This document shows, in pieces, positions 29,723-44,703 of a stretch of DNA of 64,000 nucleotides (position 1 is the stretch's first letter; the number at the start of each line of letters is the position of its first letter). The notes beneath the pieces were generated by a model. The model worked only from the letters and a program-made list of their open reading frames with translations. It was not told the DNA's origin and ran no database searches. The stretch covers positions 62,001 to 126,000 of the forward strand of contig NZ_JAKVIL010000008.1 in the NCBI RefSeq assembly GCF_022601675.1. The letters are read 5' to 3'. The DNA comes from Ancylobacter gelatini. Lineage in GTDB: Bacteria > Pseudomonadota > Alphaproteobacteria > Rhizobiales > Xanthobacteraceae. A program made the translations under genes and the position numbers.

Positions 29723-29800
29723 TCAGAAGTCCGCCGGATAGTAGGCGTTGACTTCCATGCCGACGCAGACTTCCACAATGCGAGGAGTATTCCAGGCCAT
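29723..29800 (-). CDS. pqqA: PQQ precursor peptide PqqA
   Basis: A 25-codon gene, too short for ordinary ORF calling. The peptide begins MAWNTPRIVEVCVGMEVNAY and has the conserved Glu16 and Tyr20 (E-x3-Y), the two residues cross-linked and excised to form PQQ. An AGGAGG ribosome binding site lies 5 nt upstream of ATG 29800. It is the first gene of the pqq operon, with a direct-repeat box 36 nt further upstream. Confidence 0.97.
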   Translation of the reverse strand: MAWNTPRIVEVCVGMEVNAYYPADF

Positions 29801-29836
29801 TTCTTCCTCCTGACGTTCTTTGTCTCTTGATGATCT

Positions 29837-29853
29837 CATAAGAAGTTCATAAG
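29837..29853 (-). promoter_or_regulatory. Direct-repeat box upstream of pqqA
   Basis: On the gene-sense strand CTTATGAACTTCTTATG: two CTTATG units with an 11-nt period, 36 nt before the pqqA ATG. Near-copies in the same orientation lie at 37056-37072 and 44687-44703. Tandem half-sites one helical turn apart are typical of OmpR-family regulators, and one is encoded directly upstream. Binding is inferred. Confidence 0.65.
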
Positions 29854-29997
29854 AGAACAGTTGAATTAACGGCTTTTCACACCGCTAGACTAGTGTGGCT
29901 ACTCTGGCCTGAATCGTCAAGAACGCCTCAAGGAATAGTGACAGGTCGACATTATACCAATATTGCAGTGCACTATTCGTCACGCGAATATTTGAAG

Positions 29998-30687
29998 TCA
30001 TTCCGTCGGCGGCTCGAACATGAAGCCGCGGCCGCGCACGGTGACGATCATGTTGCCGCCCTCCGGCGTCACGTCCGCGAGCTTGTGCCGGAGGTAGCCG
30101 ACATAGACGTCGACCACGTTCAGCGAGGCGCCGCCATGGCCGGCCCACAGGGCGGCGAAGATGTCCGGACGCGCCAGCGGCTCGCCGGCATGGCGCATCA
30201 GCAGCGCCAGCAGTTCGACCTCGCGCTCGGTGAAGCGCACGCGCGTGGCACCGGCCTGCACCTGGCGCGTGTCGAGATCGAGCGTGAGCGGGCCGACGGT
30301 GAGCGTGCGCGGCTCGCCATCCGCGCTGGAGCGCCGCAGCGCCTGCACCTTCACCCGCGCCAGCAATTCCTCGAAGGCGAAGGGCTTGACGATATAGTCG
30401 TCCGCCCCGGCCAGCAGCCCCTCGGTGCGCTCGTTCACGCTGGAGCGGGCGGAGAGCATGATGATCGGCGCGGTCTGGCCGCCGGCCCGCAGCGCCTTGC
30501 ACACCTCGATCCCCGAGCGGCCGGGCAGCATGACATCGAGGATGATGGCCTCCAGCGCGGCGCCGTTCGCCGCCTTCAGCGCCTGTTCGCCATCGGCCAC
30601 CAGTTCGACCTGGTAGCTCTCGGCCGCGAAGCCGCGCCGCAGCAGGGAGCCGATATCGGCGTCGTCCTCGACGATGAGAATAGTCAC
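29998..30687 (-). CDS. OmpR-family response regulator
   Basis: A 229-aa regulator. The receiver domain (1-115) has the acidic pair VEDD, phospho-acceptor Asp51 (LDVMLPG), the switch Ser (MLSARS) and Lys101 (VKPF). The C-terminal winged-helix (about 128-228) has the OmpR-type RFTEREVELLALLMRH and VVDVYVGYLRHKL motifs. GTG 30687 overlaps the kinase stop by 4 nt. It precedes pqqA by about 200 bp on the same strand, making it the leading candidate to bind the repeat boxes at pqqA, the lut-like operon and xoxG. Confidence 0.93.
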   Translation of the reverse strand: MTILIVEDDADIGSLLRRGFAAESYQVELVADGEQALKAANGAALEAIILDVMLPGRSGIEVCKALRAGGQTAPIIMLSARSSVNERTEGLLAGADDYIVKPFAFEELLARVKVQALRRSSADGEPRTLTVGPLTLDLDTRQVQAGATRVRFTEREVELLALLMRHAGEPLARPDIFAALWAGHGGASLNVVDVYVGYLRHKLADVTPEGGNMIVTVRGRGFMFEPPTE

Positions 30688-32327
30688 TGCGCGGCCTCCA
30701 GCGTCTCGTCCGGTACCGTGAGCGGCAGGCGGATGGTAACGCGCGTTCCCGCCGCGCCATCGGCCTCGCTGCCGGTCCGACTCTCGATCTCTATGGTTCC
30801 GCCATGACGGTCGACGATCCATTTGGCAAGGGCCAGCCCGATGCCGAAGCCGTTGCCCTCGCTCGTCTGCCCCGCCCCGCGCCAGAACCGTTCGAACACA
30901 TGCGGCAATTCCTCCGGCGGAATGCCGCTGCCCTCGTCATTCACGCTGAGCACCACCTGACCGTCCTGCAGCCGGCCGGAGATGGTCACGCGGCTGCCGG
31001 GGGCGGAATGGCGCAGGGCGTTGGCGACCAGCCCATCCAGCGTCTGGCGGAGCCAGTCATGATCGCCATCGGCCACGAGGTCCTCGGGCGCATCGGTCTC
31101 AAGCGCCACGCCCGCCGCGCGCGCCACCGGGCGCATGCTCTCGCGCACCTCGTCGATCAGCCCGGCGACCGGGAACAGCGAGCGCTCCAGTTCGATCTGC
31201 CCGCTTTCGGAACGGGCGATACGCAGCAGGTCCTCGACGCGGCGATGCAGCTTGCGCGCACGGTTCTGGATCACCAGCAAGGCCGCGCGCATGTCGTCGG
31301 CTCGCGGCTCCGCCGGGCGCAGCGACACCTCGGCCTCGCCGAGAATCACGGTGAGCGGCGTGCGCAGCTCATGGCTCACATCGGTGAAAAATCGCCGGCG
31401 CGCGACATCGATCGAGGACAGCCGCACATTGGCGGCCCGCAGTTCCGCTGTGCGTGAATCGACGGTCTCCTGCAGGTGCCGCTGGTCCGCCACCAGCCGC
31501 GCCTCGCGGCGGGCCAGATGCGCGGCCATGCGGTTGAACCGCGCCATGGCAAGGCTCAGTTCGTCATGGCCGGTGACCAGAAGGCGGGTGTCGGAGCGCC
31601 CGCGCGCAATGGCCGAGGCGGCGGTGGCGACATCCGAGACACGGCGCAGCAGCGAGCGGGCGAGAAGCTGGTAGAGCGCGACCGCCAGAACGATCGCGGC
31701 GGCGACGCCCAGCAGCCCCCAGCGCATGGTGCGCACGCGCAGCGCCTCGACCTCGTCCTGCGCCGCCTGCGCCGCCATGCGCTCCTCTTCCATCGCATGG
31801 CCGAGCGGCGCGCCGAAGCCGGCGGCGAAGACATCGAGCGCGATTCGTACGCCGACCGCGGGATTGTCCTGCGTCAGCGCGGCCCGAACCTGACGGTCCA
31901 TCACCTCGAACTGGGCGCGAAGCCGGGCGACGATGCGGCTGCGCGCGGCCATAAGCGTGCGCTGCTCCTCGTCGCCGAGCCGCATCACATCGGCGGCGAG
32001 CGTGGTCTCGAAACGCTCGAAGGCGATATCGGTGCGCTGGCGCGCGGCGTTCAGCCCGTCGCGGCCAAGCCCCCGCCCCTCCTGCGCGGCCTGCAACGCC
32101 ACCAGCGCGTAATCGCCGATACGGCCGGAGACGGCGGACAGCAGGTCCAGCCGCTTCTGCGCGGACACCAGCCGGTCGAGCTGCAGGCTTGCCGCGCCGA
32201 GCGTGAACACCAGCAACCCCGCCGAGGCGGCCGTGACCAGCACGGCGACCACCAGCAGCAGCGCCATGCGCGCGCGCAGCGACGACAAAAACCGCGCGCG
32301 TAACGAAGACAGTAAGACGCGCCCCAT
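30684..32327 (-). CDS. Membrane sensor histidine kinase
   Basis: A 547-aa kinase: membrane helix about 21-47, a roughly 155-residue helical periplasmic sensor (48-202), second helix about 203-224, HAMP domain (to about 275), short coiled coil, dimerisation domain with His319 in FTDVSHELRTPL, and an ATPase domain with NALRHSA, NDEGSGIP and GFGIGLAL. The periplasmic domain has no cysteine or heme motif. It is translationally coupled to the response regulator. Position suggests it senses a periplasmic signal tied to methanol oxidation, perhaps a lanthanide, PQQ or alcohol; this is inference. Confidence 0.92.
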   Translation of the reverse strand: MGRVLLSSLRARFLSSLRARMALLLVVAVLVTAASAGLLVFTLGAASLQLDRLVSAQKRLDLLSAVSGRIGDYALVALQAAQEGRGLGRDGLNAARQRTDIAFERFETTLAADVMRLGDEEQRTLMAARSRIVARLRAQFEVMDRQVRAALTQDNPAVGVRIALDVFAAGFGAPLGHAMEEERMAAQAAQDEVEALRVRTMRWGLLGVAAAIVLAVALYQLLARSLLRRVSDVATAASAIARGRSDTRLLVTGHDELSLAMARFNRMAAHLARREARLVADQRHLQETVDSRTAELRAANVRLSSIDVARRRFFTDVSHELRTPLTVILGEAEVSLRPAEPRADDMRAALLVIQNRARKLHRRVEDLLRIARSESGQIELERSLFPVAGLIDEVRESMRPVARAAGVALETDAPEDLVADGDHDWLRQTLDGLVANALRHSAPGSRVTISGRLQDGQVVLSVNDEGSGIPPEELPHVFERFWRGAGQTSEGNGFGIGLALAKWIVDRHGGTIEIESRTGSEADGAAGTRVTIRLPLTVPDETLEAAQ

Positions 32328-32449
32328 GCGGGTAACTTCCCGAAGCTTTTCCTTTAGGAAGCGGGAATGATTTCACGTCTTCACCGCCTGCGCACGCCGC
32401 AGTGCAACAGGAGCGCGCTATAGCAGGGCCGCGCCGGGGAAAAGGCCGG

Positions 32450-32659
32450 TCAGATCTCGCGGCCGCCGGCGCCCGGCCGGCCACAGCGCCACTTGGTGAC
32501 GCGCCATTTGGGATGGCTCTCGCTCCACTCGGCAATCACGGGGAGCGCACCCATCATGCACTGGACCGGAATCGTCGGCTGTTCAAGATTGACGGAAACG
32601 GCCTCCTCCCGGCAGGTGCCGGGATTGGTGATGAGGCAGATGGACAAAATCAATTCCAT
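32450..32659 (-). CDS. Small conserved hypothetical protein with paired cysteines
   Basis: A 69-aa protein beginning MELILSICLITNPGTC, with four cysteines (ICL, GTCREE, VQCMM, WRCGR) and the segment WSESHPKWRVTKWRC. Similar short proteins occur in many alphaproteobacteria as I recall them, but no function is known to me. The N-terminus is hydrophobic but is a poor signal peptide. It stands alone on the minus strand between the kinase gene and fae. Confidence 0.7.
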   Translation of the reverse strand: MELILSICLITNPGTCREEAVSVNLEQPTIPVQCMMGALPVIAEWSESHPKWRVTKWRCGRPGAGGREI

Positions 32660-33169
32660 AACGGGTCCCTAAGGCGTGAGGACAGCCTGCCCGTGCGTTT
32701 CCCAATGCGTTCGGCCGAACGTCACTCTAACGCAAGAGGCAGCAATTTCCCCCTGGTCCGACCCTTAAGCGCAGTCCAAGCAAACGCAATGCCATATGCG
32801 CCCCCTGATTGCAGAAAAGCCGCCCGGCGCCGGCATCGGACCGCCCGGCGGAGCGCGGCCAAGGATTGAGCGCGGCCCGGCGAAAAAGGCTATTAATTAG
32901 CCATTGCCCGAATAGGTGCAGACCGCTTGCCGTTACGGACGGCTCCGACCGGGAGACCCGCGACAAAAGGCGGAAATGCCTGTCATGCACGGAAGATTCC
33001 CTTGCAGGCTAAGGCGAAGCGGCTCTAGTCTCTCACCCGTGACGTGTCTGGTCGAGCTATCGGGCCAACCGGTTTGGTGTTTCAAACGCTGCAACAAAGA
33101 TAGCCGGGACATTCTGGGAGAGGGACGGTTCCTGTCTCTCGATTATGCAACCCGTTCGGGAGGAATTAG
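32660..33169. other. 510-bp region upstream of fae
   Basis: I see no gene here. It contains an imperfect AT-rich palindrome (GGCTATTAATTAGCC, 32888-32902) and, at its end, a strong GGGAGGAAT ribosome binding site for fae. The CTTATG direct repeat found at pqqA is absent, so fae may be controlled differently. Confidence 0.55.
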
Positions 33170-33676
33170 ATGGCCAAGATCAATAAGGTAATGATCGGCG
33201 AGTCGCTGGTCGGCGACGGCAACGAGGTCGCCCACATCGACCTCATCATCGGACCGCGCGGCAGCGCGGCCGAGAGTGCCTTCGTCAATGCGCTCACCAA
33301 CAACAAGGACGGCTTCACCTCGCTTCTCGCGGTGGTCACGCCGAACCTGCTCGCCAAGCCCAACACGATCCTGTTCAACAAGGTGACGATCAAGGACGCC
33401 CGTCAGGCCGTCCAGATGTTCGGCCCCGCCCAGTACGCCGTGGCCAAGGCCGTGGTGGACTGCGTTGCCGACGGCACCATCCCGGAAGACGAAGCCGACG
33501 ACCTGTTCATCTCGGTCGGCGTGTTCATCCACTGGGAAGCGGCCGACGACGCCAAGATCCAGCAGTTCAACTATGAAGCGACCAAGGAAGCCCTCAAGCG
33601 CGCCGTGAACGGCGAGCCGAAGGTCAAGGACGTGGTCGCGCAGGCCTCCTCCGCCAAGCACCCCTTCGCCGCTTAG
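33170..33676 (+). CDS. fae: Formaldehyde-activating enzyme
   Basis: A 168-aa protein that catalyses condensation of formaldehyde with tetrahydromethanopterin to methylene-H4MPT. The family core is unmistakable: [18 protein letters not shown] with the active-site histidine (His22 here), [12 protein letters not shown] and [14 protein letters not shown]. It is cytoplasmic and usually very abundant in methylotrophs, which suits the strong Shine-Dalgarno and dedicated terminator. It ties the window to H4MPT-linked C1 oxidation, as does beta-RFAP synthase at 48720. Confidence 0.98.
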
Positions 33677-33837
33677 ATCGGGGACAACCCTGGGCAGACA
33701 AAAGCTCCGCCCGCGGCCCAATATCCGAAGGGCCTGCTCCAGCGGTTGGCGGCGATCTTTCTGAACAAGTGACGGCGGCGGGTCCGCCTCGATATTCTCA
33801 GACGAAGGGCCACTCCCCTTCAGCCAGCCGACTTCAG

Positions 33838-33866
33838 AGCCCGGGGCCTCGCGCCTCGGGCTTTTT
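33838..33866 (+). terminator. Rho-independent terminator downstream of fae
   Basis: A 10-bp stem (AGCCCGGGGC with GCCTCGGGCT, one mismatch), 5-nt loop and a TTTTT run. It lies 160 bp after fae and just before the convergent ABC ATPase gene. Confidence 0.85.
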
Positions 33867-33892
33867 CATTCCAGCCTTCGGGACATCGCGCC

Positions 33893-34594
33893 TCAGGGCG
33901 CCGCCTTCTTCACCGTGCCGCGGCGAATGGCGTCGAAGCGCACCGCCGGGTCGACCGGCACATCCCTGGCGATGCGCGCCGGCGTGCCCTCCAGCGTCAC
34001 GATCCGCGTCGCCACCTCCAGCGCCTCGCGCCGGTCATGGGTGACGAACATCACGGTCGCCGGGTGCCTCTCCAGCAGCGCGCGCAACAGTTCGCGCAGG
34101 CGGAACGCGTTGGCCTCGTCGAGCGAGACGAAGGGCTCGTCCATCAGCAGCAGGTCGGGGGCGATCACGAAGGCCCGCGCCAGCGCGACCCGCCGCTGCT
34201 GGCCGAGCGAGAGCCGCTCGGGATAGGCGCCGGCGAGATCGGCAAGCCCGACCTCCGCCAGCATCGCCAGCGCGCTCGCCCGCCCGGCCTCGCCCTCCGG
34301 CAAGGGCAGCGCGACATTCTCCAGCACGGTGCGCCACGGCAGCAGGCGCGGATTCTGGAAGGCATAGCCGATGCGCGGCTTGGTCCCCGAAAAGTTCACC
34401 CGCCCGGTAAACGCCGTGTCGAGGCCGGCGACGATGTTCAGCAGCGTGGTTTTGCCGAGGCCGGATGCGCCGAGCAGGACCAGGAACTCGCGGTCGCGCA
34501 CCTCCAGCCGGAAGTCGCGGAACACCAGCCGCTCAGGACCGCCCGCGACGGCCGCAAAGCGCTTCTCGCGAATGTCGATGCGAATCTCGCTCAT
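33893..34594 (-). CDS. ABC importer ATP-binding protein (SsuB/NrtD-like)
   Basis: A 233-aa ATPase with Walker A GASGLGKTTL, a variant signature LSLGQQRR (instead of LSGGQ), Walker B LLLMDEPFVSLDE and the switch histidine in FVTHDRREA. Sequence and partners match nitrate/sulfonate/taurine-type importers. ATG 34594 overlaps the permease stop by 4 nt. It is the last gene of a DUF3280-binding protein-permease-ATPase operon. Confidence 0.88.
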   Translation of the reverse strand: MSEIRIDIREKRFAAVAGGPERLVFRDFRLEVRDREFLVLLGASGLGKTTLLNIVAGLDTAFTGRVNFSGTKPRIGYAFQNPRLLPWRTVLENVALPLPEGEAGRASALAMLAEVGLADLAGAYPERLSLGQQRRVALARAFVIAPDLLLMDEPFVSLDEANAFRLRELLRALLERHPATVMFVTHDRREALEVATRIVTLEGTPARIARDVPVDPAVRFDAIRRGTVKKAAP

Positions 34595-35340
34595 CGCCGC
34601 CACCGGTTCGCCCGCCGCTCCAGCGGCTGGATCAGCGCGATCTCGATGACCTGCACCACGGCGGTGAATGCCAGCGCATAGGCCAGCACCATCGGCACAT
34701 CGAACATCTGGAACGCGGTCTGCAGCTCGAAGCCGACGCCGTTGGAGCGCCCGAGCAACTCCACCACCAGCACGATCTTCCAGGTCAGCGCGAGGCCGGA
34801 GCGGGCGCTGGCGGTGAAGAACGGGGCGAGTTGCGGCAGCACCACATGGCGCAGCGCGCGGGCGCGCGGCACGGCGAACACCCGCGCCATCTCGTCGAGG
34901 TCGCGCGAGAGTGCGGCGGCGCCCTCGCGCATGGTCACCGCGACATTGGGAATCTTGTTCACCGCCACCGCCGTGATCGCCGCCGCCTCGGTGAGGCCGA
35001 ACCAGACATAGCAGAGGATGATGATCACCAGCGCCGGCAGGTTGAGCAGCACCAGAACCCACGGCCCGAACACCGCGTCCAGCTGTTTCGAACGTCCGAG
35101 AACGATGCCGATCACTGAACCGATCGCCATGGCGAGGAAGAAGCTCACCGCCACCCGCGCCAGCGTGATCGCGATGTTGCGCGGCAGCTCCCCGTCCGCC
35201 GAGGCGCGGATCATGGCGCGCACCACCTGCGGCGGTCCCGGCAGCAGCGGCGAGGCGACCAGCAGCGCCGCGACCTGCCACGCCAGTATCAGCGCCAGCA
35301 GCGAGCCGAGAGTCACCGCGAGACGCGCCGCTCCACTCAC
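34591..35340 (-). CDS. ABC importer permease (SsuC/TauC-like)
   Basis: A 249-aa permease with about six helices and the binding-protein-dependent EAA-type loop (ARVFAVPRARALRHVVLPQLAPFF, cited in part). GTG 35340 is preferred, with GAGG about 6 nt upstream and 7 bp after the binding-protein gene stop. With its partners it should form a complete importer; the substrate is not known. Confidence 0.87.
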   Translation of the reverse strand: MSGAARLAVTLGSLLALILAWQVAALLVASPLLPGPPQVVRAMIRASADGELPRNIAITLARVAVSFFLAMAIGSVIGIVLGRSKQLDAVFGPWVLVLLNLPALVIIILCYVWFGLTEAAAITAVAVNKIPNVAVTMREGAAALSRDLDEMARVFAVPRARALRHVVLPQLAPFFTASARSGLALTWKIVLVVELLGRSNGVGFELQTAFQMFDVPMVLAYALAFTAVVQVIEIALIQPLERRANRWRR

Positions 35341-35347
35341 GCCCGCC

Positions 35348-36349
35348 TCACTCGCCGACCGGCATGAACAGGCCGCGATCATAGGCGGCATTGGGGCCGA
35401 GCAGCGCCGGCCCGCCGAGACTGGCGAGCACCTCGTAGAGCCGGGCGCAGGAGGCGCGCTCGGCCTCGCCGAAGCTGCCGGGAATGCCCGAGCGGTAATA
35501 ATCGCGCAGCTTGACGAACTCCGCCTCGTCCGTCGCCTGCATCAGCGGGCGCACCGGCTCCCATGCCGCATCCGAGGTCGCGAGCACCTTGTTGGTCGCC
35601 GCCGCCGCGCGCAGGAAGGCGGCCAGCGCCGCGCCCTTCTCCCCCATGATCGCCCCGCGCCAGACGAAGCCGACCAGCGGGGGAACGGGCGCGATGCCCA
35701 GCCCCGTGATCACCTGCGTCATGTCCATGAGGCGAGCAAAGCCGCGCGCATCGAGCCGCGCCGCATAGGGCCAGAAGGTGAGCACCGCATCGACACGCTC
35801 GAGCGCCAGTTGCTCGCTCACCAGCGGCGCGGCACCGAACACCGGCTCGACGATGTCCGCCAGTTCGACGCCCAGCGTCGCCTTGGCATAGGCGCGCAGC
35901 AGCAGCCAGCTCTTGTCCAGCGGCCCGCCCGCGACGCCGATCTTGCGGCCCTTGAGGTCGCCGAGCGTCTTCACCGGCCCGCCCGGCGCCACCATCACCG
36001 CGCCGAGCGCGTTGGAAAACGGCGCGAACTGCATGCGCTCGCCATCATTGCGCCGGCGCATCGCCCACAGCCAGTCGGTGACGATGAGGTCGACATCGCC
36101 GGCCTGCAACGCGACGGTGGTGGCCTGCCCGGAGGCGAAATCCACGCTCTCGACGCTGAGCTTTTCCCGCGCGGCCTGCCCCTGCGCCGTCATCGCCGCC
36201 ATCAGCCAGTTCAGCGTGCCGAATTTCAGCGCGCCGACCCGCAAGGAAAGAGCTGGCGCCTGCGCGTGCACCGGCGCGGCGACGCCGGAGAGCGCGCAGA
36301 GCGAGGCGGTCGCCAGCAGCGCGCGGCGTGAGAGCGTCACGGTCATCAC
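35348..36349 (-). CDS. ABC substrate-binding protein (SsuA/NMT1-like)
   Basis: A 333-aa exported protein with a twin-arginine-like signal (SRRALLATAS, cleavage after VHA). The mature part is a two-lobed type-2 binding protein: LRVGALKFGTLNWL, LQAGDVDLIVTDW and LGDLKGRKIGVAGG fit the nitrate/sulfonate/thiamine-precursor (NMT1) superfamily. The ATG overlaps the DUF3280 stop by 4 nt. Its neighbours and the divergent PQQ-associated operon suggest a ligand relevant to methanol oxidation, but common ligands of this family are sulfonates and nitrate. Confidence 0.85.
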   Translation of the reverse strand: MMTVTLSRRALLATASLCALSGVAAPVHAQAPALSLRVGALKFGTLNWLMAAMTAQGQAAREKLSVESVDFASGQATTVALQAGDVDLIVTDWLWAMRRRNDGERMQFAPFSNALGAVMVAPGGPVKTLGDLKGRKIGVAGGPLDKSWLLLRAYAKATLGVELADIVEPVFGAAPLVSEQLALERVDAVLTFWPYAARLDARGFARLMDMTQVITGLGIAPVPPLVGFVWRGAIMGEKGAALAAFLRAAAATNKVLATSDAAWEPVRPLMQATDEAEFVKLRDYYRSGIPGSFGEAERASCARLYEVLASLGGPALLGPNAAYDRGLFMPVGE

Positions 36350-36897
36350 GGCGCTCCCTTGCCGGTCATGGGCGGATCAAGCAGCCGGTTGCGCACCAGA
36401 TAGGAGATGCCGCGCAGCCAGGCTTCATCGGTGTTGTTGCGAATATCGGCGCTGGCGGCGCGCAGCACCCGCCCGTCGGACACGTCGCGCACCTGGAAAT
36501 TGATGTTGAGGATGAGGTTCGAGACCTTCTGCACCAGCCCGATCACCTCGATATCCGCGCCCAGATCCCGCGCAATGGCCAGCTCGCAGCCATTGCAGTT
36601 GCGCAGCGGCGACGCCTTGTCGAGGCGCGCGGCCTGCGGCGCGAGATCGACCACGGTATAGCCGGCCTGCGCCAGACGCTGGCGCAGATCCTGCGAAATC
36701 AGCGCGAGCCGCTTCGCCTCCTCGGGTTTGGGCCCGCGGATATCGGCCTCGGTGCTGGTGTCCAGCAGCTCGAAATCGAACACGGCGACGCGGGTTGCCG
36801 CCTGCGCGGCAGGGATCAAGCCGGCGGGAGCCAGCAGCAACAGGGCAAGGGCGGCGCGGGCTGCGAGGGCAGCCGCGCGGCGATGGCGGGTGATCAT
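36346..36897 (-). CDS. DUF3280 exported protein
   Basis: A 183-aa exported protein with a long N-terminal hydrophobic signal (AALAARAALALLLLAPAG region). The mature domain begins with TRVAVFDFELLDTS and contains CNGCELAIARDLGADIEVIG, a pattern I assign to DUF3280/DUF2380, related to components that assemble in the periplasm. Two cysteines (CNGC) are spaced for a disulfide or metal. ATG 36897 is used; an upstream ATG (36963) would put 22 odd residues before the signal. It opens the ABC operon that diverges from the lut-like operon. Confidence 0.75.
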   Translation of the reverse strand: MITRHRRAAALAARAALALLLLAPAGLIPAAQAATRVAVFDFELLDTSTEADIRGPKPEEAKRLALISQDLRQRLAQAGYTVVDLAPQAARLDKASPLRNCNGCELAIARDLGADIEVIGLVQKVSNLILNINFQVRDVSDGRVLRAASADIRNNTDEAWLRGISYLVRNRLLDPPMTGKGAP

Positions 36898-37026
36898 CTC
36901 GGGTCGCCTCCCGGCGGCGAACGTGTTGTCCGGCGGCTTGGCGCCGCTCTGGTAGGCGATCATAGCTGCCGGCCGGAACGCTGCAACTGATATCGATCAC
37001 GTCCGCGTCATGAATACAGACAGTAA

Positions 37027-37045
37027 ATCCTTAAATATAAAGGAT
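37027..37045. promoter_or_regulatory. Inverted repeat ATCCTT-n7-AAGGAT
   Basis: Perfect 6-bp arms with an A/T-only 7-nt centre, just upstream of the direct-repeat box. It could be a second operator, or the promoter of the leftward operon. It has no counterpart at pqqA or xoxG that I can see. Confidence 0.4.
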
Positions 37046-37055
37046 AGACGCGCGT

Positions 37056-37072
37056 CTTATTAATTTCTTATG
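37056..37072 (+). promoter_or_regulatory. Direct-repeat box upstream of the lut-like operon
   Basis: CTTATTAATTTCTTATG: two CTTAT units with an 11-nt period, 15 of 17 positions identical to the pqqA box, in the same orientation to its gene and 95 nt before the first start codon. A likely activator or repressor site shared with pqqA and xoxG. Confidence 0.65.
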
Positions 37073-37167
37073 TTTTCTATTGTGTTGATACCAGAGTTTT
37101 ATTTGGTACATTTCTTCCCGAGGAGGAAGCGGAAAGCTTCCCGACAAACAAAATCGCCTGGGATGAA

Positions 37168-38403
37168 ATGCTGATGGGACTGAAAACGAACGCCGCCGGC
37201 GTGGCGCTGGCGTTTGTCTGCGCCTTTGGCACCGCACTGCCGGCGCTGGCGCAGAACGCAGCGCCGCCGCTTGGCCCGAAAGCCGCCGCCGTCATCGCTC
37301 CCGAGCAGACGTTCCGCATCGGCGTGGTGCGGCAGATTCCCGAGCCGCCGCCCTGGATCGCCCCGCTCCAGATGCCGCCCGACGATCTCGGCATCGCCGG
37401 CGCCGAACTCGGCATACGCGACAATCTCACCAGCGGCCGCTTCGTGAAGCTCGACTACAAGCTCAGCACCGAGGTCGTCCCGACTGGGGAGGACCCTTTG
37501 CCGGCAGTCGAGAAGCTGGTGGCGGACGGCAACAACTTCATCCTGCTGGATGTGCTGGCGAAGGATCTGGTGCGCATCGCCGATGCGGTTAAGGACAAGG
37601 ATGTCATCCTGATCAATGTCGGCGCCACGGATGACGTGCTGCGCCAGCAGGACTGCCGGGCGAATGTGTTCCACATCGCCCCCAGCCGCGCCATGCTCAC
37701 CGACGCGCTGGCGCAGTTCCTCGTGACCAAGCGCTGGCTGAACTGGTTCCTGATGACCGGCCGCACCGATGCGGACAAGCTCTATGCCGAGGCGCTGAAG
37801 CGTTCGGCGAAGAAGTTCGGCGCCAAGATCGTCGCGGAGAAGACCTGGGATTACGGCCCGGACGCCCGCGCCACCGCGCAGGCCGAGGTGCCGCGCGGCA
37901 CCCAGGTCGGCGAGTACGACATGCTGGTGGTGGCGGACGAACTCGGCGAGTTCGGCGATATCCTGCCCTATAACACCTGGCTGTCGCGCCCCATTGCCGG
38001 GACGCAGGGTCTGATGCCGCTGTCCTGGCACCCGACCATGGAGAACTGGGGCGCCTCGCAACTCCAGAGCCGCTTCTTCAAGCAGCACAAGCGACTGATG
38101 CAGCCGCTGGATTTCCAGATGTGGGAAGGCGTGTTCTCCATCGGCTCGGCGAGCCTGAAGACGCGCTCCAGCGACCCGGCCAAGGTGAAGGCGCAGATGC
38201 TGGCGCCCGACTACGACCTGCCGGTGTTCAAGGGCGTCGCCGCCAGCTTCCGCCCATGGGACCAGCAATTGCGCCAGCCGATCCTGCTGACCCATGCCAC
38301 CAACACGGTGACGCTCTCGCCGCAGTCCGGCTTCCTGCACCAGCGCACACCGCTCGACACGCTCGGCGTCGATCAGCCGGAAAGCGTCTGCAAACTGAAT
38401 TAA
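37168..38403 (+). CDS. PQQ-dependent alcohol dehydrogenase-associated ABC substrate-binding protein
   Basis: A 411-aa periplasmic binding protein with a signal peptide (cleavage after ALA) and a two-lobed, branched-chain-amino-acid-receptor-like fold. It matches the PQQ-associated binding protein family (TIGR03863-type), which accompanies the propeller, ATPase and permease downstream. In Methylorubrum (lut) and Pseudomonas putida (ped) similar clusters are tied to lanthanide uptake or response. The ligand here is unproven. ATG 37168 or 37174 could start it. It is first in the operon, under the direct-repeat box. Confidence 0.88.
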   Translation: MLMGLKTNAAGVALAFVCAFGTALPALAQNAAPPLGPKAAAVIAPEQTFRIGVVRQIPEPPPWIAPLQMPPDDLGIAGAELGIRDNLTSGRFVKLDYKLSTEVVPTGEDPLPAVEKLVADGNNFILLDVLAKDLVRIADAVKDKDVILINVGATDDVLRQQDCRANVFHIAPSRAMLTDALAQFLVTKRWLNWFLMTGRTDADKLYAEALKRSAKKFGAKIVAEKTWDYGPDARATAQAEVPRGTQVGEYDMLVVADELGEFGDILPYNTWLSRPIAGTQGLMPLSWHPTMENWGASQLQSRFFKQHKRLMQPLDFQMWEGVFSIGSASLKTRSSDPAKVKAQMLAPDYDLPVFKGVAASFRPWDQQLRQPILLTHATNTVTLSPQSGFLHQRTPLDTLGVDQPESVCKLN

Positions 38404-38440
38404 ATCAACGAGATAAATCAGAAACGCTCAGGAGGAACGA

Positions 38441-39430
38441 ATGAAACGCCACCTCACGCTCTCCACCGGCCTTTTGGCGCTGGCGGGAGTGCTGATCGTC
38501 GACGCCGCCCCTGCCTTCGCGCAGGCCCGCGCCTTCGTCTCCAACGAGCGCGACCACACGATGAGCGTGATCGACATGGACACGCTCAAGGTGATCGACA
38601 CCATAAAAACCGGACGCCGGCCGCGCGGCATCATCGCCAGCCCGGACGGCAAGCTGATCTATCTGTGCGCCTCCGACGACAACCGGGTCGAGGTCTACGA
38701 CGCCAAGACGCTTAAGCTGGTCAAGACGCTGCGCTCGGGGCCGGACCCGGAGCTGTTCGTGCTGCACCCCTCCGGCAACCCGCTCTACATCGCCAATGAA
38801 GACGACAACATGGTCACGGTGGTGAATGTCGAGAACAACGATCTGATCGCGGAAATCCCGGTCGGCGTCGAGCCCGAGGGCATGGGTATCAGCCCGGACG
38901 GCAAGTTCATGGTGAACACCTCCGAGACCACCAACATGGCCCATGTGGTGGACACCGCGACCAACGAGATCATCGAGAACATCCTCGTCGATTCCCGCCC
39001 GCGCATCGCCGAGTTCTCGGCCGACGGCAAGCAGCTCTGGGTTTCGGCGGAAGTCGGCGGCACGGTGGCGGTGGTCGATCCGACCGATGGCTGGAAGATC
39101 ATCAAGAAGATCAGCTTCAAGATCCCCGGCGTGAATGACGACGCCATCCAGCCGGTCGGCGTGCGCCTCACCAAGGACGGCTCCAAGGCCTTCATCGCGC
39201 TCGGCCCGGCGAATCGCGTGGCGGTGGTCGATGCCAAGACGCTGGAAGTCGAGAAGTACCTGCTAGTCGGCCAGCGCGTCTGGCAGCTCGGCTTCACGCC
39301 GGACGAGAAGTTCCTGATTTCGACCAACGGCAACTCGAACGACATCTCGATCATCGATGTCGCCAGCGAGAAGGTCACCAAATCCGTGCCCGTCGGCCGC
39401 CTGCCGTGGGGCGTGGTCGTGGTGCCGTGA
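38441..39430 (+). CDS. PQQ-dependent catabolism-associated beta-propeller protein
   Basis: A 329-aa exported protein (signal cleaved after AFA) made of YVTN/NHL-type propeller repeats, e.g. AFVSNERDHTMSVIDMDTL, LYIANEDDNMVTVVNV and KFLISTNGNSNDISIID. It fits TIGR03866, which travels with PQQ alcohol dehydrogenase systems. Propellers of this kind are scaffolds or binding modules, so a role in docking ligand or dehydrogenase in the periplasm is likely but unproven. AGGAGG precedes the ATG. Second gene of the operon. Confidence 0.9.
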   Translation: MKRHLTLSTGLLALAGVLIVDAAPAFAQARAFVSNERDHTMSVIDMDTLKVIDTIKTGRRPRGIIASPDGKLIYLCASDDNRVEVYDAKTLKLVKTLRSGPDPELFVLHPSGNPLYIANEDDNMVTVVNVENNDLIAEIPVGVEPEGMGISPDGKFMVNTSETTNMAHVVDTATNEIIENILVDSRPRIAEFSADGKQLWVSAEVGGTVAVVDPTDGWKIIKKISFKIPGVNDDAIQPVGVRLTKDGSKAFIALGPANRVAVVDAKTLEVEKYLLVGQRVWQLGFTPDEKFLISTNGNSNDISIIDVASEKVTKSVPVGRLPWGVVVVP

Positions 39431-39477
39431 CGCCTGAAACTTCAACCAGACAAAACAATGTTCCGGGAGGACAACCA

Positions 39478-39924
39478 ATGACGTACCGCACCACCGCCGC
39501 CCCCCTCGTCCGCACCCTCGTCGCCGCCGCTTTGCTGGCCGTCTCCGGCACCGCCTTCGCCGCCGGCGACCTGACGCTGAAGCCGACCGAGCTGAAGCCG
39601 CTGAAGGTCGGCCTCGGCGATGCCGGCTACGGCGTCTCGGAGAAGACCTACAATCTGGAGACCGGCAAGGCCTACAGCCTCGAAATATCCTCGACCGGCA
39701 AGAAGGAATGCGCCTGGCAGGCGCCCGCCTTCTTCCAGAGCATCTTCCTGCGCAAGGTCGAGGTCGAGGAGGTCGAGATCAAGGCGATCGGCCTCACCGA
39801 GATCGAGATGGAACAGGAAGGCGAGGCCGAGCTGTTCTTCGTGCCGCTCAAGCCGGGCACCTATCCCTGGTTCTGCAAGGGCATGGACGAGCGCGGCATG
39901 AAGGGCGAATTCGTGGTGAAGTGA
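39478..39924 (+). CDS. Cupredoxin-like periplasmic protein lacking histidine
   Basis: A 148-aa exported protein (signal to about AFA, residue 23) with a cupredoxin-type beta-sandwich ending in PGTYPWFCKGMDERGMKGEF, where a blue-copper protein would have Cys-His-Met ligands. The Cys and Met remain, but the whole protein has no histidine, so a normal type-1 copper site is impossible. A strongly acidic stretch (VEVEEVEIKAIGLTEIEMEQ) precedes it. ATG 39478 is preceded by GGGAGGACAACC. It may bind another metal or no metal. It sits third in the lut-like operon. Confidence 0.82.
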   Translation: MTYRTTAAPLVRTLVAAALLAVSGTAFAAGDLTLKPTELKPLKVGLGDAGYGVSEKTYNLETGKAYSLEISSTGKKECAWQAPAFFQSIFLRKVEVEEVEIKAIGLTEIEMEQEGEAELFFVPLKPGTYPWFCKGMDERGMKGEFVVK

Positions 39925-39964
39925 GCCGCCTGGACGCGCAGGTCGCGACTGCGACATGATTTGT

Positions 39965-39989
39965 CATCCCCGGGCCAACCCCGGGGATG
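39965..39989. repeat. Dispersed CATCCCCGGG palindrome inside the operon
   Basis: CATCCCCGGG and CCCGGGGATG form a 10-bp stem with a 5-nt loop between the cupredoxin-like gene and the ABC ATPase gene. This is a common scattered palindrome in Hyphomicrobiales. It may reduce read-through or stabilise the upstream mRNA. Confidence 0.7.
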
Positions 39990-40037
39990 ATGGCGTCCTC
40001 AGACCATCAAGGCCACCCGCCTCCAAGGAGAAACCTC

Positions 40038-40802
40038 GTGCCTCAGGCCGCGGCCAGCCTCTCTCCCGCTCTCGCCATCGAGGGCGTCAGCCATAGTTTC
40101 GGGGCGCGCAAGGCACTGGACGCCGTGAGCTTTTCGGTCGCCGCCGGCAGCTTCACCGCCCTGCTCGGGCCCAACGGCGCGGGCAAGACCACGCTGTTCT
40201 CGCTGGTGACCCGGCTTTACGAAAATCGCAGCGGCACCATCCATGTGCTCGGCCACGATGTGCGGGTCGAGCCGGCGGCGGCGCTGGCGAAGCTCGGCGT
40301 GGTGTTCCAGGCGCGCACGCTGGACCTCGAACTGAGCGTCATGCAGAACCTCGTCTATCATGCCACGCTGCACGGCATGGGCTTCGCGAGCGCCCGCCGC
40401 CGCGCGCTTGAGGTGCTGGCACAGGCCAGCCTTGCCGAGCGCGCGCGCGACAAGGTGCGCAACCTCTCCGGCGGTCAGATGCGCCGGGTCGAGATCGCCC
40501 GCGCGCTGATGCACCGCCCCCGCCTGCTGCTGCTGGACGAGCCGACCGTCGGCCTCGACATCGCCTCCCGCGCGGCGCTGGTGGAGCAGGTGCGCCGGCT
40601 GGTGGCCGAGGAGGGAATCGGCGTGTTGTGGGCAACCCACATCATCGAGGAGATCGCGCCCGGCGACCGGGTGATCGTGCTGCATCGCGGCCGGGTGCGC
40701 GCGCAGGGCGACTATGAGGACCTGCTGCGGCGGACGGCCACGGAAGACATCTCCGCCGCCTTCCTCAGCCTCGTCGACGACGGCGCGGGAGAAGCGGCAT
40801 GA
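40038..40802 (+). CDS. PQQ-associated ABC transporter ATP-binding protein
   Basis: A 254-aa ATPase with Walker A GPNGAGKTTL, signature LSGGQMRR, Walker B LLLLDEPTVGLD and the switch histidine WATHIIEE. It belongs to the exporter/DrrA-like group, TIGR03864-type, rather than to importer ATPases. GTG 40038 is the start, with AAGGAG 7 nt upstream. It overlaps the permease by 4 nt. An ABC-2 type ATPase working with a periplasmic binding protein is unusual and hints at a non-classical transporter. Confidence 0.9.
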   Translation: MPQAAASLSPALAIEGVSHSFGARKALDAVSFSVAAGSFTALLGPNGAGKTTLFSLVTRLYENRSGTIHVLGHDVRVEPAAALAKLGVVFQARTLDLELSVMQNLVYHATLHGMGFASARRRALEVLAQASLAERARDKVRNLSGGQMRRVEIARALMHRPRLLLLDEPTVGLDIASRAALVEQVRRLVAEEGIGVLWATHIIEEIAPGDRVIVLHRGRVRAQGDYEDLLRRTATEDISAAFLSLVDDGAGEAA

Positions 40803-41638
40803 GTGCGTCCCGCTTCCGGCTGCCGCTTTCCGGCTACGCGATCTGCATGGCCGGCATCTGCTGGCGCGAGGGGCTGCGCTTTCTCAACCAGCGCGGCCGC
40901 TTCCTCTCGGCGCTGGTGCGCCCGCTGGTGTGGCTGTTCATCTTCGCCGCCGGCTTCCGCTCCGTGCTGGGCGTCTCGATCATCCCGCCCTACGAGACCT
41001 ATGTGCTCTACGAGGTCTATGTGACCCCGGGGCTGGTGGCGATGATCCAGCTGTTCAACGGCCTGCAGTCCTCGCTCTCCATGGTCTATGACCGCGAAGT
41101 GGGGGCGATGCGCATTCTGCTGGTCAGCCCCTATCCGCGCTGGTTCCTGCTGGTGTCGAAGCTCACCGCCGGCATCTGCGTGTCGCTGCTCCAGGTCTAT
41201 GCCTTTCTATTGGTGGCGTGGTTCTGGGAGGTCGAGCTGCCGCCCGTCGGCTACCTCACCGTGCTGCCGGCGCTGCTGCTCACCGGCATGATGCTCGGCG
41301 CCATGGGGCTCGTCATGTCGTCGGTGTTCCGGCAGATGGAGAACTTCGCCAGCGTAATGAACTTCGTGATCTTCCCGATGTTCTTCGCCTCCTCCGCGCT
41401 CTATCCGCTGTGGCGCGTGCAGGAGAGCAGCCTCGTCCTGTGGTGGATCTGCACGCTCAATCCCTTCACCTATGCGGTCGAACTGATCCGCTTCGCGCTC
41501 TACGGGCAGTTCGAGCCCTTCGCGGCGCTGGTGGTGGGATCATGTGCGATTCTGTTCCTCGCCGGCTCGATCCTGGCCTATGATCCCTCCGCCGGGATCA
41601 TGGCCCGCAGGGGCGGGCCGGATGCGGGAAAACAATAA
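40799..41638 (+). CDS. PQQ-associated ABC transporter permease (ABC-2 type)
   Basis: A 279-aa ABC-2-type permease with six helices; the region EVGAMRILLVSPYPRWFLLVSK and FPMFFASSALYPLW are characteristic (each cited in part). It matches the PedC-like TIGR03861 family of PQQ alcohol oxidation systems. ABC-2 permeases usually export, so this operon may export a ligand or chelator rather than import. ATG 40799 overlaps the ATPase stop. Confidence 0.9.
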   Translation: MSASRFRLPLSGYAICMAGICWREGLRFLNQRGRFLSALVRPLVWLFIFAAGFRSVLGVSIIPPYETYVLYEVYVTPGLVAMIQLFNGLQSSLSMVYDREVGAMRILLVSPYPRWFLLVSKLTAGICVSLLQVYAFLLVAWFWEVELPPVGYLTVLPALLLTGMMLGAMGLVMSSVFRQMENFASVMNFVIFPMFFASSALYPLWRVQESSLVLWWICTLNPFTYAVELIRFALYGQFEPFAALVVGSCAILFLAGSILAYDPSAGIMARRGGPDAGKQ

Positions 41639-41682
41639 TGAAATCACGGCCATCAGAGCCGGGTGATGTCGAGGAGATGTCC

Positions 41683-42324
41683 ATGATCACACGCATGCCG
41701 CCTCACCGGATCGCGGTCGCGCCCCTGTCCTGTGGCGCCGCGCTGGCCGCCCTGCTGGTCGCCGGCCCCGCTGCCGCCGCTGCCCCTGTCGGCCTGTGGC
41801 CCTGCATCCAGCCCAAGGTCGCGACGCTGGCCAGCGGGCAGATGTGGGCCGGCCCGCCGATCGAGAATCTCGACTGGCACGCCGACGCCGACGTCGCCGA
41901 ATTGGTGCCGGTGCTCGCCGCCCGGCGCACCTCCATCGAGGACGCCACGCAGCACATAGAGAGCTTCGCGCAGGATGCCGGCGCTGACCGCAACGCCAAG
42001 CTCACTTTGCTGTTCGCCGGCACGTTCGAGCAGATCAACGCCCTGCGCTCACGCATCATGGAAGGCATCGAGCGCTACTCCCAGCATCAGCTCGACCTCT
42101 CACAGCGCATCAAGCAGGAAAGCCTGGACCTCGCGCACAAGAAGAAGGCGGCCGACACTGCCGCTGACAAGGCGCAGGTCGCCCAGCTCGAGCAGCAGGT
42201 GCTGTGGGACACCCGCATTTATGACACCCGTGCGCAGGCCATGACCGCGGTGTGCGAAAGCCCGGTGATCCTCGACCAGCGCGCCTTCGCCATCGCCCGC
42301 GCGATCCAGAACGTCATGCAGTAG
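41683..42324 (+). CDS. Unknown secreted coiled-coil protein of the lut-like operon
   Basis: A 213-aa protein with a signal peptide (cleavage about GPAAAAA) and a helical mature part. DAGADRNAKLTLLFAGTFEQIN is followed by a long predicted coiled coil (about 130-185; HKKKAADTAADKAQVAQLEQ). Two cysteines remain (PCIQPK, AVCESP). I do not recognise a family, though it resembles lut-cluster exported proteins in position. ATG 41683 has GAGGAG 6 nt upstream; ATG 41638, overlapping the permease stop, is the alternative. It is the last gene of the operon. Confidence 0.75.
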   Translation: MITRMPPHRIAVAPLSCGAALAALLVAGPAAAAAPVGLWPCIQPKVATLASGQMWAGPPIENLDWHADADVAELVPVLAARRTSIEDATQHIESFAQDAGADRNAKLTLLFAGTFEQINALRSRIMEGIERYSQHQLDLSQRIKQESLDLAHKKKAADTAADKAQVAQLEQQVLWDTRIYDTRAQAMTAVCESPVILDQRAFAIARAIQNVMQ

Positions 42325-42471
42325 CGGACGGCGCGGCGCGCCACCGCGACGACGATCAGCAGGAGAAGGAGCCGCCCGCCGAGCCTGTGCGCGTGATCGC
42401 CGGTACCGGCAAGGCGGGAGGCGGCAGGGCGACGGATGAGATGCCGTTCGCGGCCCGCAAAAAGCCGCTGT

Positions 42472-43140
42472 TCAGGGTCGCGGTGTCGCCTGCTCCAGGG
42501 GCAGGCCGGTCTTCGCCCAGCCGTCGCTCCCGGCGGGGTACCAGGAGACCGCGCTGTAGCCATAATCCATGGCGCGCTTGGCCGCGTTCCACGACATCCA
42601 GCAATCCGTCAGACAGTAAAACACCATGGGCGCATCCCGCCGCCCCTCGGTGAGATCACCCAGGCTCTTGCGGAACCAAGCGTCCATCTCGGGGCTCAGC
42701 GCGCCATAGCCGACATTGGGAAGCCACACGCTGCCGGGAATATGGTCGCGCCGCTTGTCGCGCCAGATCGTGCCGGGCGGAAGATTAGTCGGCTTCACGT
42801 CGCGCGGCATCACGTCGAGGAACAGCGCGCCTTTCGCCCGCCACAGCGCCTCGGCGGCGGCCGTGTCGAGCACGGCCGCCCCGCGCAGCGTCGGAGGGGT
42901 GGGGGCGCGATAGCTGTCCATACGGTAGCCGTCGGGCTCAGGCACCACCTCCGCGCTGACGGCTGGCCGCTGCGAGAATGCCAGCATGACCGCGAGCAGC
43001 CCGGCCATACCCAGCCACGCCAGCCGCTTGAGCGAGATGTCGCCGCGCGCGGGTCTCGTCTCGGGCCTCGTCTCGTGCATCGTCTCTTGCGCGGCGGCCC
43101 GGCGTGCTTGCGCTTCCCGTTCCGACGCGCGCGCGCTCAT
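42472..43140 (-). CDS. Rhodanese-like PQQ catabolism-associated Cys-Trp motif protein
   Basis: A 222-aa exported protein with an N-terminal helix (about 39-60) and a rhodanese-like domain. The cysteine motif reads YCLTDCWMSWNAAKRA, with two cysteines before a tryptophan, the hallmark of the TIGR03865 family found with PQQ dehydrogenases. It could handle a thiol or redox step in dehydrogenase or cytochrome maturation. It begins by overlapping xoxJ by 4 nt, so it belongs to the xoxG-xoxJ transcript. Confidence 0.87.
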   Translation of the reverse strand: MSARASEREAQARRAAAQETMHETRPETRPARGDISLKRLAWLGMAGLLAVMLAFSQRPAVSAEVVPEPDGYRMDSYRAPTPPTLRGAAVLDTAAAEALWRAKGALFLDVMPRDVKPTNLPPGTIWRDKRRDHIPGSVWLPNVGYGALSPEMDAWFRKSLGDLTEGRRDAPMVFYCLTDCWMSWNAAKRAMDYGYSAVSWYPAGSDGWAKTGLPLEQATPRP

Positions 43141-44012
43141 GGTGAGGTGGCCTTTGGAGAGGCACCATCCGGGGTGGCCCCGCCTGGTGCGGCACCGATG
43201 AGCTTGTTCCGGTCATCCAGCAGCGGCACGCCGTAATCGAGCAGGATCCGGTTGATCGCCGCCTGCTCCTGCCCGATGAAGCCGTTGAGCTGGTGCTTCC
43301 AGTTCAGCTCGCCCGGCCTTATGCCGAAGGTGATGCGGTAGATCAGCGAGGGATCGCCCGTCTCCTTCACCAGCGGCACCACGTTCAGCGGCAGTTCGGA
43401 GCGCTTGGCATAGTAGCCCCCGATCGGGCCCCACATGATGGCGCCGTCCACCGTGCCGGAATCGACATCATTGATCATGGTCTCCGCCGGATTCTCGAAA
43501 CGGCGGTCCACCATCAGCGAGTAGGGCCGCGCCAGCGCCAGCAGGCCGTTGCGCGCCAGAAGGTCGGCCGGCGGCGTACCGGCGACGACGCCGATCCGGT
43601 GCCCCTTCAACCGCGGATCGGACAGGGTGTCGACCCCCTCCAGATCGCCGCCCTTGCGCGTCACCAGCACCCAGGCGGAGCGGTAATAGGGGTTGGTATT
43701 GAGCACCGGGTCGCCGCCGGCGACATAGCCCATCACGATGTCGCAGCGCTTGGCACCAAGCGTCATGCGATAGAATCCGGTCGCCTGCGGAAACCAGGTG
43801 TAGTCGAGCGCGAGGCCCAGCTTCTCGCCAAGCAGTTCGGCGATCTTGTTCTCGAAACCCTCGCCCTCCTGATTGGTGAAGGGCATGTTGGCAGGGTCGG
43901 CGCACACGCGCAGCGTCGAGCGATCCACGAGATCGGAGACCTGCGCGCGCGCCGGCCCACCGGCGAAAAGCGCGAGCGCGACAGCGCCCGCTATGCCGGC
44001 GAGACGACGCAT
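43137..44012 (-). CDS. xoxJ: XoxJ periplasmic solute-binding-like protein
   Basis: A 291-aa exported protein (signal cleaved after ARA) of the type-2 substrate-binding fold: LRVCADPANMPFTNQEGEG at the N-terminus and GFENKIAELLGEKLGL are standard for XoxJ/MxaJ. XoxJ is required for methanol oxidation and is thought to help mature or activate XoxF. The position after xoxG, 4 bp from its stop, is the usual xoxFGJ order. The C-terminus is extended (GGATPDGASPKATS). Confidence 0.93.
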   Translation of the reverse strand: MRRLAGIAGAVALALFAGGPARAQVSDLVDRSTLRVCADPANMPFTNQEGEGFENKIAELLGEKLGLALDYTWFPQATGFYRMTLGAKRCDIVMGYVAGGDPVLNTNPYYRSAWVLVTRKGGDLEGVDTLSDPRLKGHRIGVVAGTPPADLLARNGLLALARPYSLMVDRRFENPAETMINDVDSGTVDGAIMWGPIGGYYAKRSELPLNVVPLVKETGDPSLIYRITFGIRPGELNWKHQLNGFIGQEQAAINRILLDYGVPLLDDRNKLIGAAPGGATPDGASPKATSP

Positions 44013-44016
44013 CGCG

Positions 44017-44589
44017 TCAGCCCGGGCGACCGAAGCACTGGTTCTCATTGGCAGTGTACGCCTTCGTCTTGTCCTCGCGCTTGCTCGGACGCACGCGATC
44101 GAGCGCCCCGTCGGCGCGGGCCTTGAGATAGATGTAGATGTCGTCGAGATAACACATGACGTTGTTGTTCTCGCCGAAGGCCGGCATGACCTGGTTCTGC
44201 GAGGAATTGACCTCCCTCTTGCCGTTGACCACGATCTCCATGAACTTCTCATAGCTCATGGTCTTGAGCGAATTGGCGAGGGCCGGCGCATAGCTGGAGC
44301 CCATGCCATCGGGACCGTGGCAGACATGGCATTCAGCGTGATAGCGCCGGTAGCCGCTATAGGCGTACCAGTCGATCGTGCCGTCGGGCTGGATGAAATA
44401 GGTCGGCGTGCCATCCGGCAGCGTGTACTTACCGAGCTCGTCCTTGGTCTTTCCCCCCTCCGGCGCAGCAGCCGCAGCCGTCGCGTCCTGCGCCACGGCG
44501 GCGACCGGAACCATGAGGGAGAGGCCAAGCAGCAGGGCGGATGCCGGAAGAACACCGGAAACAAGCCATCCGCGGATCTTATTTTTCAT
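44017..44589 (-). CDS. xoxG: XoxG-type cytochrome c (electron acceptor of XoxF)
   Basis: A 190-aa periplasmic c-type cytochrome with a signal peptide (cleavage after VAQ) and one heme site CHVCH (Cys87, Cys90, His91). A methionine in NQVMPAFG (Met135) is a good axial ligand. Two further cysteines (MCYLDD, NQCFGR) fit the methanol-metabolism cytochrome family with four cysteines. It should accept electrons from XoxF. ATG 44589 has GGAG upstream; 37 further codons upstream are not signal-like. A direct-repeat box lies 97 nt upstream. Confidence 0.94.
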   Translation of the reverse strand: MKNKIRGWLVSGVLPASALLLGLSLMVPVAAVAQDATAAAAAPEGGKTKDELGKYTLPDGTPTYFIQPDGTIDWYAYSGYRRYHAECHVCHGPDGMGSSYAPALANSLKTMSYEKFMEIVVNGKREVNSSQNQVMPAFGENNNVMCYLDDIYIYLKARADGALDRVRPSKREDKTKAYTANENQCFGRPG

Positions 44590-44686
44590 GAAGCACACTC
44601 CTGGAGGCGCCGCTCGGGGGCGCCGATCACGAGGCAGGTGGAGGATCTGATGCGCGCCAGCGCGGCGCATCGCGATGTGGAATTCT

Positions 44687-44703
44687 TCTAAGAAATTCAT
44701 AAG
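44687..44703 (-). promoter_or_regulatory. Direct-repeat box upstream of xoxG
   Basis: On the gene-sense strand CTTATGAATTTCTTAGA: matches the pqqA box at 14 of 17 positions, with the same 11-nt period, lying 97 nt before the xoxG start. It is the third copy in the window and separates xoxG regulation from that of xoxF. Confidence 0.6.

Follow-up and report, generated by a model that had tools for sequence, protein, structure and literature searches.

Here we describe a short direct repeat found upstream of pqqA, of a lutA-like operon and of xoxG in a 64,000-nucleotide (nt) stretch of Ancylobacter gelatini DNA (contig NZ_JAKVIL010000008.1; hereafter the window). We call this repeat the MxbM box, and predict that it is very probably the DNA site of the OmpR/PhoB-family response regulator encoded beside pqqA, working together with the MxbD-like sensor histidine kinase encoded next to that regulator. 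In the mechanism that we propose, the phosphorylated regulator would bind as a head-to-tail dimer, with one CTTAT half-site for each subunit and the two half-sites placed 11 nt, or about one helix turn, apart. The sites would define one small regulon for pyrroloquinoline quinone (PQQ) synthesis (pqqA), the calcium methanol dehydrogenase (mxaF and its divergent gene), uptake of lanthanides (lutA) and the cytochrome that serves the lanthanide dehydrogenase (xoxG).

The core of the box is CTTATNANNTTCTTAT, which is 16 nt long and contains two CTTAT half-sites 11 nt apart. A sequence-only reading of the window had reported three related 17-mers, and its description was reproduced in full: the three copies are present letter for letter (Table 1), 13 of their 17 positions are invariant, and they lie 95 nt before the lutA-like gene (start codon at 37168) and 97 nt before xoxG (44589), while the pqqA copy lies 36 nt before its ATG (29800). 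A degenerate pattern with up to three mismatches has three occurrences in the window, where shuffles predict 0.05; since this pattern was fitted to the three copies, the odds are post hoc, and conservation in a further 29 congeners serves as the independent test. Across the 4.3-Mb assembly the same pattern gives 11 matches versus 8 for its reversed form, and the only three exact matches are the window copies. The fourth-best match (two mismatches) falls in the intergenic region upstream of mxaF on contig C18, where a further match of opposite sense (three mismatches) lies 281 bp away. When the window was scanned with a weight matrix built only from congeneric pqqA, lutA and mxaF sites, scores above 6 were obtained at the three known copies only. 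Tandem boxes of the OmpR/PhoB family (PhoB type) consist of two direct half-sites with an 11-bp period. The box described here has the same direct 11-nt period, with high information at both CTTAT halves across 59 distinct congeneric sites, as a tandem box of this family should have; it differs from the PhoB type in its CTTAT half-site and its methanol-oxidation regulon.

The genus set comprised 30 genomes, the source genome included (numbers with G, L, C and f are our handles for genomes, loci, contigs and families). The best match to CTTATNANNTTCTTAT has no mismatch upstream of lutA and 0 or 1 mismatch upstream of pqqA in all 30 genomes, and xoxG is the weakest case, with 1-3 mismatches in 30/30. 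An mxaF orthologue is present in 27 of the 30 congeners at 92-100% identity (85% in one), while G021, G023 and G043 have matches near 50% only. All 27 carry a distal copy with 0 or 1 mismatch 414-446 nt before the mxaF ATG; 22 of them also have, 132-158 nt before mxaF, an inverted second copy with no more than three mismatches. Over the 30 whole genomes, CTTATNANNTTCTTAT with at most one mismatch was found 101 times, compared with 21 times for the reversed pattern. These matches are located at pqqA (30), lutA (30), mxaF (29), xoxG (2), beside the kinase gene (2) and elsewhere (8), the last eight each carrying one mismatch. With 91 of the 101 at four promoters, the spread over many unrelated promoters that the sequence-only reading had named as the outcome telling against it was not seen. 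The box is thereby confirmed as a real, small, conserved regulon word.

An extra box is present upstream of the kinase gene in 9 of the 30 congeneric loci, at 1.0-1.2 kb and in one case at 2.1 kb; the source window has no kinase-side box above score 6. At locus L136, the extra box (4090-4111) precedes the gene of a small exported protein (3500-3991, minus strand). The xoxF promoter of the congeners carries only conserved words that resemble a half-site, and every box match there has at least two mismatches. One such word, similar to TCTTATTATGATTTTGCTGCA, is located at 46899-46921 (+), about 267 nt before xoxF, and recurs upstream of xoxF in many congeners; it resembles a half-site and has no 11-nt partner.

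Outside the genus, the box co-occurs with the OmpR-type regulator across families. Among 397 genomes sampled from the order, this regulator was identified in 35 and mxaF in 49; removal of G000 and G009 (own genus) and G386 (partial match) left 46 genomes for the analysis of mxaF. Their mxaF upstream regions contain a box that beats local shuffles (p<0.05) in 19 of the 24 genomes with the regulator and in 1 of the 22 without it, and the median best scores are 14.3 and -8.9, respectively, at A+T contents of 0.43 and 0.42. At pqqA, the box beats shuffles in 29/29 scored genomes with the regulator (score at least 7.3) and in 0/7 without (at most 3.2); L179 and L180 (own genus) are excluded from the 29, and loci with no or weak pqqA (L258, L276, L278, L280, L282 and the regulator loci lacking pqqA) were left unscored. 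For lutA, where the analysis covered the best 30 of 51 lutA-like matches, scores exceed the shuffled 95% value of 6.1 in 14 of the 22 scorable regions with the regulator and in none of the 6 without (L291 and L292 share coordinates and were counted once; L293, at a contig end, was excluded). In family f35 the regulator lies apart from both pqqA and mxaF and the pqqA boxes are still there, on the opposite strand, which indicates that the association of box and regulator is more than mere linkage. The box thus follows the regulator both in and outside the genus, as expected for an OmpR/PhoB tandem box. The uniform orientation claimed in the sequence-only reading is true of the three window copies and fails elsewhere, as the proximal mxaF copy and the f35 pqqA copy are inverted. 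In one Methylobacterium-like genome (L321), a tandem pair of pqqA copies is found downstream of a box.

The gene order in the window is kinase, regulator, box, pqqA. The kinase-regulator-pqqA order is also found in the Methylobacterium loci L015 and L016 and in several further genomes; the box of L015 and L016 is weak (score 9.5) yet above shuffles, and the window regulator is 57% and 54% identical to the respective counterparts. Passages of PMC9320726 (Table 2) place mxbM next to pqqA in M. extorquens DM4; on this synteny and the sequences of the Methylobacterium regulators, we take the window regulator to correspond to MxbM and the kinase to MxbD. In family searches the regulator matched 92 families, and all 25 matches listed fall below the family cut-offs. 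Within its segment WAGHGGASLNVVDVYVGYLRHKL, 17 of 23 residues are identical in at least 95% of 64 sequences, a set in which at least two genomes are counted twice. This segment presumably contains the recognition helix, and its conservation would be as expected for regulators that read one word. The idea that the repeat is a regulon motif of the adjacent OmpR-type regulator has therefore stood up to the comparative tests, with some amendments: mxaF, the most important putative target, lies on another contig and had been missed, the regulator is probably the counterpart of the known MxbM with an MxbD-like kinase, and the orientation of the box varies.

The position of the box relative to the predicted promoters is constant at lutA and pqqA. 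At lutA, TTGA begins 13 nt past the 16-nt core in 30/30 congeners; the full form TTGAAT-N17-TAGAGT is present in 13 of the 30, the others vary in the -10 element or the spacer, and the source genome is the furthest from consensus. The lutA core would lie near -64 to -49, upstream of the predicted -35 element, as expected for an activator. At pqqA, TTGACG is found upstream in all 30 congeners, followed in all 30 by CANNNT after an assumed 17-nt spacer; with this spacer and a start assumed 7 nt past the -10 element, the box begins at +32 to +34 of the predicted start in 30/30. At mxaF, a conserved AAGACA-like element precedes the inverted copy, and one of the two best mxaF sites is at 102-139 nt in 7 of 8 Methylobacterium-like (f42) genomes. 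The M. extorquens mxaF transcription start is placed about 168 nt before the ATG in passages of PMC9320726.

The box is upstream of the predicted promoter at lutA, and in the leader at pqqA and, for the proximal copy, at mxaF, so that one simple activator model fails to cover all sites and the sign of regulation at pqqA and mxaF may be either positive or negative. Passages of published work state that MxbDM is required for mxaF expression and the lanthanide switch, and MxbM for xox repression (PMC5784242, PMC11845868, PMC7391723). For M. aquaticum, published passages report that pqqA rises on methanol under either metal condition while pqqBCDE do so only without lanthanum, and this rise of pqqA argues against plain repression at pqqA. 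The pqqA and proximal mxaF boxes could be either repression or roadblock sites, or sites from which the regulator activates at a less usual position.

Several observations weigh against the box being the site of the MxbM-like regulator. The predicted or published transcription start precedes the box at pqqA and near mxaF, a poor fit to plain activation. Regions exist where the regulator is present and the box is not detected: 5 of the 24 regulator-bearing mxaF regions, all from genus g39, fail against shuffles, and 8 of the 22 scorable regulator-bearing lutA regions, from the best 30 of 51 matches, score below 6.1. The rows of the co-occurrence analysis are related genomes, representing 6 genera with the regulator and 10 without, own genus included. 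In 10 Methylobacterium-like genomes, the tight word CTTAKGATCTTCTTA with at most two mismatches was unenriched at this setting, with 21 matches (7 at pqqA and 1 at mxaF) against 28 for the reversed pattern. No methyl-accepting chemotaxis protein gene was found near these 21 matches, and passages of PMC10613068 describe mtpC of M. aquaticum as MxbD-dependent. The pattern of the sequence-only reading, with at most two mismatches, was likewise unenriched in a sample of 16 genomes of other families (45 matches versus 70 reversed).

One alternative is that another regulator, inherited together with the MxbM-like protein, is the one that binds the box, the OmpR-type regulator acting only indirectly. 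The regulatory cascade of M. extorquens, which includes MxcQE and MxaB in passages of PMC9291206 and PMC6115532, offers room for such a protein, as does the fact that the binding proposed here is predicted from sequence. However, this binder would need to co-occur with the box in families f28, f35, f42 and f50 (and f45 at lutA) as the OmpR-type regulator does, and the regulator-box-pqqA order is preserved in the f42 and f50 loci. We consider this alternative very unlikely.

The pqqA copy could also be mainly an RNA element, namely one segment of a hairpin that the leader forms close to the ribosome-binding site, with a likeness to the other copies that is partly incidental. Most of the 30 congeners (loci L122-L151) show two hairpins in single-sequence folds of the pqqA leader, as inspected by eye, and the second, directly ahead of the ribosome-binding site, is formed by pairing of the sequences on either side of the box; the predicted pqqA start is upstream of the box in all 30. 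Because a plain alignment misplaces the arms, the hairpin was tested by arm exchange. In 28 distinct leaders, a leader's own arms form a stem of 5.8 bp on average, compared with 4.4 bp after exchange of the 3' arms, and 0 of 2000 permutations reached a value as high; interchangeable stems occur at the second hairpin (TTGGCTT/AAGCCAA, TCAATCT/AGATTGA, TGCCT/AGGCA and TGATCT/AGATCA), so that the flanks of the box both pair and covary. Single-sequence folds suggest that stems may surround the box in Methylobacterium-like leaders too. However, RNAalifold on a plain MAFFT alignment of 29 pqqA leaders returned five pairs with no covariation and did not find the box hairpin, the fold of the source genome has the first hairpin and lacks the second, and Rfam gave no match at gathering score in the window. 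Moreover, the same word is found at lutA and mxaF (where no hairpin search was made), the box occurs on both strands elsewhere, and it follows a DNA-binding regulator. A mainly RNA role is thus very unlikely.

It is tempting to speculate that the two properties are combined at pqqA. One box would then directly link the supply of PQQ to lanthanide uptake and to both methanol dehydrogenases, the calcium and the lanthanide enzyme. The pqqA box would be a composite DNA/RNA device: the regulator's site would sit at an unvarying +33 within the covarying leader hairpin, and its bases would act both in transcription control and in the structure of the mRNA, possibly across several families. We regard this as possible yet doubtful, and less probable because the second hairpin is missing from the source genome's own fold.

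A different binder is suggested by the genes next to mxaF on contig C18. A UhpB-type kinase and a NarL/LuxR-type regulator are encoded there divergently from mxaF, with boxes in the intergenic region between, and we take this pair to resemble the MxaYX system. Of 51 genomes, 48 have a homologue of the NarL-type regulator (E<=1e-40), among them all 22 mxaF genomes that have neither the OmpR-type regulator nor the box (43% identical in G266), and in 22/22 of these the score within 1500 nt upstream of mxaF is at most 3.1. Conversely, G023, G043 and G178 have the OmpR-type regulator and the box, and no NarL-type homologue was found in them. The box therefore does not track the NarL-type regulator, and the MxaX-like protein was rejected as binder by this two-way dissociation of presence and absence; as a matter of general knowledge, an 11-nt direct repeat is also better suited to OmpR-family dimers. 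That the box is the site of this second regulator is very unlikely. A chance AT-rich word, which the sequence-only reading had already thought improbable and for which it might speak that the three window copies of a fitted pattern were noted post hoc, is refuted by conservation at three promoters in 30/30 genomes with only 8 of 101 matches elsewhere, and its probability is negligible.

The predicted MxbM box stands among genes of methanol oxidation and lanthanide uptake (Table 1). At E<=1e-100 mxaF has two matches in the genome, and the xoxF-like gene is the second; mxaF itself, on contig C18, encodes a PQQ methanol dehydrogenase and is followed by MoxJ and cytochrome cL genes. In the xoxF-like matches of six genomes (G022, G012, G043, G005, G042 and G010), one TGA falls inside the aligned range; since the alignments end at residues 614-618, it may be nothing more than the ordinary stop codon included in an overlong alignment. 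The gene divergent from mxaF (L012 9116-9634, minus strand) has its predicted start codon 5 nt from the distal box, and no ribosome-binding site was seen by eye. Genes for an SsuA-like binding protein and an ABC ATPase (33893-36349, minus strand), whose listed families are below cut-off, lie between the kinase gene and the lutA-like operon.

Table 1 Genes, boxes and predicted promoter elements in the window (ABC, ATP-binding cassette)
Feature	Coordinates	Strand	Remarks
pqqB	28752..29687	-	TIGR02108 above cut-off
pqqA	29726..29800	-	MAWNTPRIVEVCVGMEVNAYYPADF
pqqA leader	29814..29887	-	First hairpin predicted; box-enclosing second hairpin absent from this genome's minimum-energy fold
Box at pqqA	29837..29853	-	CTTATGAACTTCTTATG; 11-nt direct repeat; matches CTTATNANNTTCTTAT exactly
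Predicted pqqA promoter, TTGACG-N17-CACACT	29892..29920	-	Predicted start near 29885; box from about +33
OmpR/PhoB-family response regulator, MxbM-like, proposed binder	29998..30687	-	229 residues; regulator match in 30/30 congeners
Sensor histidine kinase, MxbD-like partner	30684..32327	-	Same kinase-regulator-pqqA order in L015, L016
Box at lutA-like operon	37056..37072	+	CTTATTAATTTCTTATG
Predicted lutA promoter beginning TTGATA, off consensus	37085..37113	+	Prediction
lutA-like substrate-binding protein, first operon gene	37168..38403	+	TIGR03863 above cut-off
Beta-propeller protein of lutA-like operon	38441..39430	+	TIGR03866 above cut-off
ABC ATP-binding subunit	39987..40802	+	TIGR03864 above cut-off
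ABC permease	40799..41638	+	TIGR03861 above cut-off
xoxG-like c-type cytochrome	44017..44589	-	TIGR03874 above cut-off
Box between xoxF and xoxG, weaker copy	44687..44703	-	CTTATGAATTTCTTAGA
xoxF-like PQQ methanol dehydrogenase	44830..46632	-	TIGR03075 above cut-off

Among known systems, MxbDM of Methylorubrum/Methylobacterium is alike in having a kinase-regulator pair directly upstream of pqqA, a related regulator, and methanol, PQQ and lanthanide genes as targets. It differs in that four candidate direct targets sharing a defined box are described here, whereas the literature passages on MxbDM that were examined name no MxbM site. A system similar to the NarL-type MxaYX is present beside mxaF here too, and its regulator, unlike the MxbM-like one, is out of step with the box. 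An upstream regulatory sequence of the mox genes in M. extorquens AM1, by its title common to methanol-oxidation promoters, was reportedly described by Zhang, FitzGerald and Lidstrom in 2005; this element is said to be a multiple A-tract, unlike the CTTAT repeat. Neither a published MxbM site nor lutA and pqqA as direct targets were found in the open-licence literature searched, a check that did not extend to the content of that 2005 paper.

The role of MxbDM in the methanol and lanthanide switch is already known from mutants, and what we propose as new is a defined candidate DNA site. With a 16-nt box and a constant promoter geometry at lutA and pqqA, direct targets of the regulator become listable and testable, and lanthanide uptake and PQQ synthesis are added as probable direct MxbM targets. 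The box also raises a puzzle, in that a regulator needed for expression has putative sites downstream of the start at pqqA and mxaF. It separates candidate MxbM sites from those of the second system beside mxaF, and may serve as a search word for regulons in related methylotrophs.

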